Below, in pieces: positions 16,089 through 17,180 of a DNA stretch of 35,391 bases. The notes under the pieces are model-generated. The model was not told where the DNA came from. It ran no database searches and saw only the letters and a list, made by a program, of their open reading frames with translations. The DNA is from a virus. How positions within the stretch are numbered: the first letter of the stretch is position 1; each line of letters starts with the position of its first letter. Location: the IMG/VR virus record IMGVR_UViG_3300044729_003416, positions 1 to 35,391 of that record, one strand, 5' to 3'. The translations under genes were made by a program, and so were the position numbers.

Positions 16089-17180
16089 CTATAGCTTTAC
16101 CGCTCTAGGGTGTGGCTTGCGCTGATTACGGCCAAACAGCGACGGCTGGACAACTGGGGAAGCTGCGGGCCTGGGCTGGCGTGGGCTGCGGGCCTTGGGC
16201 GCTGGGGGTGTGGCCACCACGTCAATACCAAGCATCCCCTGGCGGAACTGCTGCAGGGTCTTGCCGCGCAGCTGGGCCTTCAAGCGGTTGTGAAACTGGA
16301 TGATCGGCCCTGATGGGTAGCTCCTCTTGAACGGATCGGCAGCCCATCGCTCCAGCAAGCCACGGTCAGCGAGTCGCAGGTTGTTAAATGCCTGTTCAGT
16401 CAGGCGGAACAACGCCGGGGCAAGGCTTTCGTCCACGGCCTGGGGCTGGTGATCGCTGAACAGGGTGATTTCGTCCTCAAGCTCAACGGTGCCGACCATG
16501 GCGCCCATCATTTCGTTGATCTCGGACTCGGTGAAGGCGGGGATGGCCTTCACGATCTGAGCCAGGCTCAAGCCTTCGGCCAGCAACCTGCGCGCCTTGG
16601 GGTAGTGCTCGCGCCACTTGCTAGGCATTTTTACGTCATAGCCATGATCCCTAATGTGGTGTTTGATCTGCCCCTCGATGTATTGGCAGACGCAGGTGCT
16701 GATGGCGTACGGGCGACCGGTACCAGGGTTAATGCGCTTGGGATCGTAACGACGGCAGCCGTTCACCAGCCCCTCCAATGCAGGGCCGATGAAGTCGTCA
16801 TACGGGCGACCACAAAGCCTTGCCCACTTGTTGGCAGCAGCGCGGGCGAGGCCTTGGTTTTCAGTGATCAACCGCTCGGATAGCTCGGTACGGGGCGGGC
16901 TGCCGGGCTTGACTGGCTGTTCTAGGGGCTCTCCTGCACGAACAGCTCGCCGCGATCGAGTATTACGACGTGGCTTGGCGTCAGGTGGATCTTCACATCC
17001 GGCGATGGCGCCGTCCAGCTCCCCCCGAACCGGAACAGCTCCAGGTGGCTCCCCTGCGACGACTGGCGAAGACGCCATGTCCCCGCCACCGGCTTGCCGA
17101 TCAGTTGGGACAAGGGAGCCTTCGGGAGCTTCAGTGTTGCCATCGGTGGGTTGCGGTTGCGGGTTGGGGATGATGGTCAT
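16089..17180 (-). CDS. Phage-encoded sigma-70-type sigma factor
   Basis: 363 aa. Residues 1-98 are disordered (Pro/Arg-rich). Residues ~99-187 align with sigma region 2: LITENQGLARAAANKWAR, YDDFIGPALEGLVNGCRRYD, ISTCVCQYIEGQIKHHIRDH, then the V-K-M-P edge of region 3. Residues ~187-230 resemble region 3. Residues ~258-305 have the helical pattern of region 4 (NLRLADRGLLERW...IQFHNRLKAQL) but no recognisable helix-turn-helix. The tail is basic. Closest in style to group 3 sigma factors. It would redirect host RNA polymerase. It overlaps its upstream neighbour by ATGA and sits between terminase and portal. Confidence 0.8.
   Translation of the reverse strand: MTIIPNPQPQPTDGNTEAPEGSLVPTDRQAGGGDMASSPVVAGEPPGAVPVRGELDGAIAGCEDPPDAKPRRNTRSRRAVRAGEPLEQPVKPGSPPRTELSERLITENQGLARAAANKWARLCGRPYDDFIGPALEGLVNGCRRYDPKRINPGTGRPYAISTCVCQYIEGQIKHHIRDHGYDVKMPSKWREHYPKARRLLAEGLSLAQIVKAIPAFTESEINEMMGAMVGTVELEDEITLFSDHQPQAVDESLAPALFRLTEQAFNNLRLADRGLLERWAADPFKRSYPSGPIIQFHNRLKAQLRGKTLQQFRQGMLGIDVVATPPAPKARSPRQPRPAASPVVQPSLFGRNQRKPHPRAVKL

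Follow-up and report, generated by a model that had tools for sequence, protein, structure and literature searches.

A SigF/SigB-type phage sigma factor without a recognisable region 4 and candidate late promoters in a cyanosiphophage lineage

The stretch of viral DNA analysed here (the window; an IMG/VR virus record of 35,391 bases) encodes, at 16089-17180, a protein that is almost certainly a sigma factor of the SigF/SigB type. The protein contains a sigma region 2, has no recognisable region 4, and carries near its C-terminus a pentapeptide of the beta-clamp-binding type. The favoured reading, to which a probability of roughly 0.58 is given, is that of a late sigma factor which serves promoters consisting of a -10 element only and which would be tethered to the sliding clamp of the host, coupling late transcription to replication. 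The evidence comprises the domain content of the protein, a short promoter-like element, the enrichment and placement of this element, and the conservation of the tail motif.

The sigma factor gene, its product and its neighbourhood

In profile searches the protein matched PHROG 36098, 'RNA polymerase sigma factor' (E=4e-18), and PHROG 351 (E=8e-13). Residues ~96-216 matched the NCBIfam models SigF PRK07408 (E=2.3e-15) and SigB/F/G (E=2e-9) with scores below the curated cut-offs (56.9 vs 261 and 37.5 vs 234 bits), so that the protein is not a full-length member of SigF, SigB or SigG. A family profile of 28 relatives retrieved solved sigma factors (8x6g_H, E=1.2e-11; SigA chains, ~1e-5). Pfam Sigma70_r2 was detected in 19 of the 28 family members and Sigma70 r3 in none of them; for the window protein itself Pfam called neither region. 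In the AlphaFold2 model, residues ~99-179 (mostly pLDDT 85-93) form region 2 and match sigma domain 2 (8b3z, Z 12.1, rmsd 1.5 over 78 aa; 3ugo, sigma2 with -10 ssDNA, Z 10.7). The sequence and the predicted fold of this region place the protein in the sigma-70 superfamily. Modelled helices occupy the place of region 3, and hhalign against sigma factors that bear a region 4 aligned residues 97-225 at 99.2%, the alignment ending there. An earlier sequence-only reading had proposed a phage-encoded sigma factor with clear regions 2 and 3. The sigma factor, its exact ORF boundaries and the sigma2 fold were confirmed, and region 2 is certain; region 3 is only probable. Both ends of the protein are disordered in the model. 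The true start codon is uncertain, because the N-terminal ~80 residues are among the disordered parts and are missing from relatives of 293-308 aa.

Pfam Sigma70 r4 was found in 0 of 28 family members, whereas two full-length sigma factors given the same treatment scored 1.3e-10 and 2e-10; these controls came from a scan of a genome collection. The C-terminal domain alone, aligned by hhalign to region-4-bearing sigma factors, reached a probability of 0.2%. The protein thus has no DNA-reading unit that can be recognised as region 4, as the same reading had noted, and a functional region 4 is very probably absent. Complete group 3 sigma factors (SigB, SigF, SigG) possess regions 2, 3 and 4, a layout from which the window protein departs by the lack of region 4. 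Residues 253-316 were modelled fairly confidently as a separate four-helix domain, with pLDDT 82 when folded alone. Structure comparison of this domain gave no significant fold match; the best, very weak one was sigma70 region 4 (6vjs_X 521-609, Z 3.3). T4 gp33 and gp55 structures were not among the listed fold matches, which by itself is uninformative. The identification of the domain as a degenerate region 4 was rejected, with nil support from sequence (hhalign 0.2%) and a weak hint from the fold (Z 3.3); either 'degenerate' or 'absent' region 4 may be the apt description of residues 253-316.

IMG/VR yielded about 20 relatives at 85-100% identity and over 50 that are more distant, and the ORF is therefore not a chance one. 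Group A comprises the window and relatives at 64-100% identity, all of them uncultured IMG/VR contigs. Group B consists of S-CRES1, S-CRES3, S-CBS2 and the contigs allied to them, whose sigma factors share 22-27% identity with that of the window in a 28-sequence alignment, and P-SS2 forms a third branch. The host of group A, and hence its clamp, is probably cyanobacterial, as judged from related phages only. The genome-collection scan yielded one homologue (L098) in a bin labelled Proteobacteria, which is probably a binned phage contig. Megablast of the window against isolate phages gave no matches, nor did Rfam and tRNA scans.

On the minus strand of the window the gene order is terL, two small ORFs, sigma and portal (Table 1). 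The isolates S-CBS2, S-CRES1, S-CRES3 and P-SS2 have the order terS-terL-sigma, with sigma directly after terL. By profile and position the window protein belongs to the cyanosiphophage sigma family PHROG 36098, with the two small ORFs intervening in the window. The location inside the packaging block, also remarked on in the earlier reading, holds: replication and nucleotide genes lie upstream of terL and a minor head gene downstream of portal, which puts sigma at the border of early and late genes. KBS-S-2A and MED4-184, the nearest terL relatives without this sigma factor, have no sigma gene between terL and the portal region. At 24843-27253 (minus strand) a helicase (PHROG 62/16) is followed by a DNA methyltransferase-like ORF which also matches the end of helicase family PHROG 16.

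Table 1. Coordinates of the sigma factor gene, its parts, neighbouring genes and promoter-like elements in the window
Feature	Position	Strand	Evidence or remark
Terminase large subunit (terL)	17917..19419	-	PHROG 10250/2, Pfam Terminase_6C
Two small ORFs between terL and sigma	17177-17584, 17581-17895 (17177..17895)	-	Not constant among relatives
Sigma factor gene	16089..17180	-	ORF of 363 aa, ATG start, exact ORF boundaries
Sigma region 2, residues 97-181	16638..16892	-	NCBIfam/PHROG, AF2 pLDDT ~90, sigma2 fold, hhalign
Probable sigma region 3, residues 187-228	16497..16622	-	hhalign to residue 225, modelled helices
Four-helix C-terminal domain, residues 250-316	16233..16433	-	At the place of region 4, without recognisable HTH
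Pro/Arg-rich disordered linker, residues 318-344	16149..16229	-	Differs between relatives
QPSLF, residues 345-349	16134..16148	-	Beta-clamp-binding type motif, 14 residues from C-terminus
Candidate late promoter element GGAAAGCT	16074..16081	-	35 nt upstream of portal start
Portal protein	14550..16046	-	PHROG 145, E=5.6e-67
Four copies of GTAACGSACCGGCTACNNTATG	12648-12669, 13480-13501, 13948-13969, 14481-14502	-	TAnnnT promoters of the earlier reading; separate local element
Candidate late promoter element GGAAAGCT	10355..10362	-	37 nt upstream of GTG of gene 9603-10325
Candidate late promoter element GGAAAGCT	9593..9600	-	30 nt upstream of ATG of gene 8641-9570

Candidate late promoters and other repeats

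Group A and P-SS2 share the element GGAAAGCT, which is short, -10-like, without a -35, and located mostly 28-45 nt upstream of late genes. Its counterpart in the S-CRES/S-CBS2 group, GG[AC]ANACTA, is likewise -10-like without a -35, and the stated distance to late genes covers both elements. GGAAAGCT was discovered through its conservation upstream of the portal gene in group A, where it is kept in all relatives compared except for spacing changes of the L040/L053 type. When ranked by placement 20-47 nt upstream of ORF starts downstream of sigma, GGAAAGCT came first among 1120 8-mers of the same composition, and did so separately in five genomes (G001, G004, G005, G006, G008). In two control phages without the sigma factor the placement test was negative and enrichment nil. 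The elements did not stand out by simple over-representation of 8-mers, and in pooled sense/antisense asymmetry GGAAAGCT ranked 7th; it is placement upstream of ORF starts that sets it apart. Sense copies preceding sigma numbered zero in the five genomes, one in G002 and three in G007, the last perhaps reflecting a contig cut elsewhere.

P-SS2 contains six sense and no antisense copies of GGAAAGCT, five of the six lying 28-43 nt upstream of annotated genes of the late region (head morphogenesis, gp037, tail protein, baseplate wedge and gp086). For S-CRES3, 20 sense and 2 antisense copies of GG[AC]ANACTA were counted against 2.3 expected per strand, a number reached by 0 of 400 shuffled patterns. 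Eighteen of the 20 sense copies are found 28-79 nt upstream of annotated genes, mostly structural (terS, portal, tape measure, scaffold and others); of the other two, one is 9 nt upstream of a gene of the structural region and one within an early gene. Sense to antisense ratios were 10:1 in S-CRES1, 9:1 in S-CBS2 and 7:0 in G010. Genomes within each group are related, and the motif and promoter counts are not independent.

At the element sites, the -35 region resembles TTGACA no more than random positions do. Among the aligned S-CRES3 copies the only strongly conserved upstream feature is the T-runs of adjoining terminators. Some likely early promoters do have a -35, e.g. TTGACC-N17-CATACT. 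Read as a -10 hexamer, motif positions 3-8 retain the two most important bases of a -10, A(-11) and T(-7), with GG directly upstream; the GG that opens the element recalls -10 elements of the SigB/SigF type. The suggestion that the sigma factor acts on late genes was strengthened, since the element follows it across the family and precedes late genes, and from these sequence patterns recognition of late promoters by the window sigma factor appears quite probable.

The earlier reading had expected promoters with TAnnnT and no -35, and named those at 13.5 and 14 kb. Candidate promoters lacking a -35 do exist; those at 13.5 and 14 kb are copies of GTAACGSACCGGCTACNNTATG, a local 22-nt repeat and not the family element. 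Four copies occur in 12648-14502 against 0 expected, each preceding a small gene downstream of portal; the repeat has a TAnnnT core, and a -35 is not apparent. GTAACGSACCGGCTACNNTATG is confined to the closest relatives and was rejected as the general late promoter of the family because relatives at 64-78% identity that carry the same sigma factor have none. Each copy is the core of a ~84-nt unit, present four times on the minus strand, with an upstream block like GATTGCGACAATCTGTGAACTGTC; by their sequence, these units look like accessory gene cassettes bearing their own promoter.

A 67-nt element with GGCTTA[GT]GATGG is present in two copies (85%) on the plus strand, at 721-787 and 4159-4225. 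Elements with GGCTTA[GT]GAT are conserved in distant relatives and found elsewhere in the genomes on both strands; they were discarded as late elements on account of their conserved upstream part and their occurrence on both strands, and may represent another class of promoter having such an upstream part. The window also holds an imperfect duplication at 10556-11348, composed of 251 nt at 94% (10696-10946, 11098-11348) and 132 nt at 90% (10556-10687, 10960-11091), with related repeats at 9401-9569 and 10156-10324. Near the right end, at 35232-35347, there is a GC-rich array of ACCCCTCCCCCAAAAGGGGG units.

The tail motif and the proposed coupling to replication

After the Pro/Arg-rich linker the window protein ends in ...VVQPSLFGRNQRKPHPRAVKL, which includes QPSLF. 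Bacterial partners of the beta clamp have a C-terminal pentapeptide with the consensus QL(S/D)LF, with variation (PMC9690074). QPSLF would be a motif of this type and departs from the ideal form. In group A it is present in nearly every complete relative (rare variants QPTLF, QSSLF and QPSLL), not at the terminus but followed by 12-14 conserved residues. In group B the variants QGSLF, QASLF, QGNLF, QGLLF, QGVLF, QGCLF, QGNVF and QSSLF form the exact C-terminus. The deposited frame of the S-CBS2 sigma factor gp077 (L022 6013-6633) shifts and stops early, through either a sequencing error or a real change; the other frame reaches QGSLF as in the relatives. In the 28-sequence alignment, with identity down to 22%, Q345 and F349 are invariant and none of columns 307-344 is.

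A five-residue motif by itself is weak evidence for clamp binding. Of the 467 genes predicted in five genomes, the five sigma genes and no others have the motif within 25 residues of the end. A looser scan of 16 genomes (1453 ORFs) found it in 12 of 14 sigma factors and in 10 other ORFs. Two proteins that are DNA-methyltransferase-like by eye (G007 34739-35791, G008 8621-9613) end in QPDLF or QPDVF plus five residues and are possibly further clamp-binding phage proteins. The P-SS2 sigma factor has no tail motif though its genome has the promoter element, and the tail is thus not universally needed. No DnaN or phage-encoded clamp was found in 15 related records including four isolate genomes, so the clamp partner would be that of the host. 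Binding of the tail to the beta sliding clamp is judged rather likely from the conserved motif. The motif escaped the earlier reading and suggests a recruitment route for a sigma factor without region 4.

The proposed mechanism takes the gene product to be the lineage's late sigma factor. Regions 2 and 3 would dock onto the RNA polymerase core of the host, and the docked protein would read GGAAAGCT in the group of the window or GG[AC]ANACTA in the S-CRES/S-CBS2 group. Contact with a -35 would not be made, because region 4 is gone. The QxxLF of the flexible tail is proposed to hook the sigma factor onto host clamps left on the DNA by replication, and the tethered holoenzyme would track replicating phage DNA and fire weak, -10-only promoters. 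The clamp-type motif suggests that, as in the unrelated phage T4, late genes would be turned on only where the DNA is replicating. As the weakest step, the domain at residues 250-316 may replace region 4, or act on the beta flap in the manner of T4 gp33, in either case with no reading of DNA.

A late sigma factor might also read GGAAAGCT-type promoters with no clamp coupling, activation needing only sigma and core. The tail would then have another task, such as bringing sigma or terminase to replicated DNA, or be a chance tail. The promoter set of P-SS2 in the absence of the motif, the basal transcription still given by T4 gp55 lacking its clamp epitope, and the adjacency of terL are in keeping with this. 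Against it, groups of 22-27% identity have retained the motif although their linkers diverge, and hardly any gene of these genomes other than sigma has it; this explanation is regarded as unlikely. It is more improbable that GGAAAGCT and GG[AC]ANACTA are sites of another factor, be it a host SigF-like sigma, a second phage sigma or a leader element acting in RNA, with the window sigma factor directing something else. Some of these phages do have a second sigma-like gene (P-SS2 gp113), and a position ~30 nt upstream of start codons could permit action in leader RNA; that distance is, however, far too long for a Shine-Dalgarno site. The bases common to both groups are those expected of a -10 having A(-11), T(-7) and upstream GG, the divergent sigma factors of the two groups go with related elements, and terL-related phages without this sigma factor lack the element.

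The missing region 4 and the variable, disordered N-terminus would also suit a decoy, a decaying, truncated SigF of host origin that binds core and prevents transcription of the host but does not itself initiate. Region 2 and the tail are strongly conserved over two divergent groups, the place in the genome is constant and the promoter set matches; this points to a kept function and makes such a decoy very improbable. The favoured reading of a clamp-tethered late sigma factor can be extended, tentatively and with somewhat less confidence than the contrary, to a SigF-derived protein that lost region 4 and combines a gp33-like flap domain with a clamp hook. Replication-coupled late transcription would then have evolved twice, here with the host clamp as activator throughout a lineage of cyanophages. 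A one-polypeptide version of gp55 and gp33 is plausible because artificial gp55-gp33 fusions are functional, according to a review of T4.

Comparison with known systems

Late transcription activated by a sliding clamp has been presented as peculiar to phages related to T4 (PMC2988020). If the favoured reading is true, this principle is convergent, able to run on the clamp of the host, and present in many uncultured phages. A candidate late-promoter code, GGAAAGCT or GG[AC]ANACTA, is provided for the cultured P-SS2, S-CBS2, S-CRES1 and S-CRES3. The loss of region 4, the tail motif and the promoter set appear to be new within the open-access literature searched, where no report of a phage sigma factor with a bacterial beta-clamp motif was found.

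The nearest cellular families are the bacterial group 3 sigma factors (SigF/SigB/SigG), which differ in having region 4 and reading a -35. The closest phage proteins are P-SS2 gp003, S-CBS2 gp077, S-CRES1 gp20 and S-CRES3 gp21 (PHROG 36098), which are homologous, encoded directly after terL, without region 4, and annotated as group 3/SigF sigma factors. They are about 25-30% identical to the window protein, which differs by its long disordered N-terminus and longer C-terminal domain; the S-CRES proteins end in QGSLF, unlike the window motif 14 residues from the end. In 2009 the homologue of P-SS2 was classed among the group 3 sigma factors (PMC2784084); the passages found there do not discuss its region 4, tail or promoters.

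In T4, gp55 lacks region 4 and serves late promoters without a -35; both it and gp33 contact the clamp by means of linker-borne C-terminal epitopes (PMC2988020, PMC7892883). The window sigma factor resembles gp55 in having region 2 without region 4 and in its predicted -10-only promoters, and may resemble it in bearing a clamp epitope on a flexible linker. The contact of gp55 with terminase (PMC3012670) is echoed in the gene order of the lineage. Homology is not detectable (BLASTP E 0.36, hhalign 0.1%, other PHROGs); the protein is not a gp55 homologue by sequence and is proposed, by analogy, to work like one. The T4 phages are myoviruses and the window lineage consists of cyanosiphophages. 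T4 gp55 ends in a different epitope, SLDFLYEAND, in place of the bacterial-type QPSLF. T4 encodes its own clamp (gp45) and needs gp33, whereas the window lineage would use the clamp of the host, and the C-terminal helical domain of its sigma factor could fill the part of gp33.
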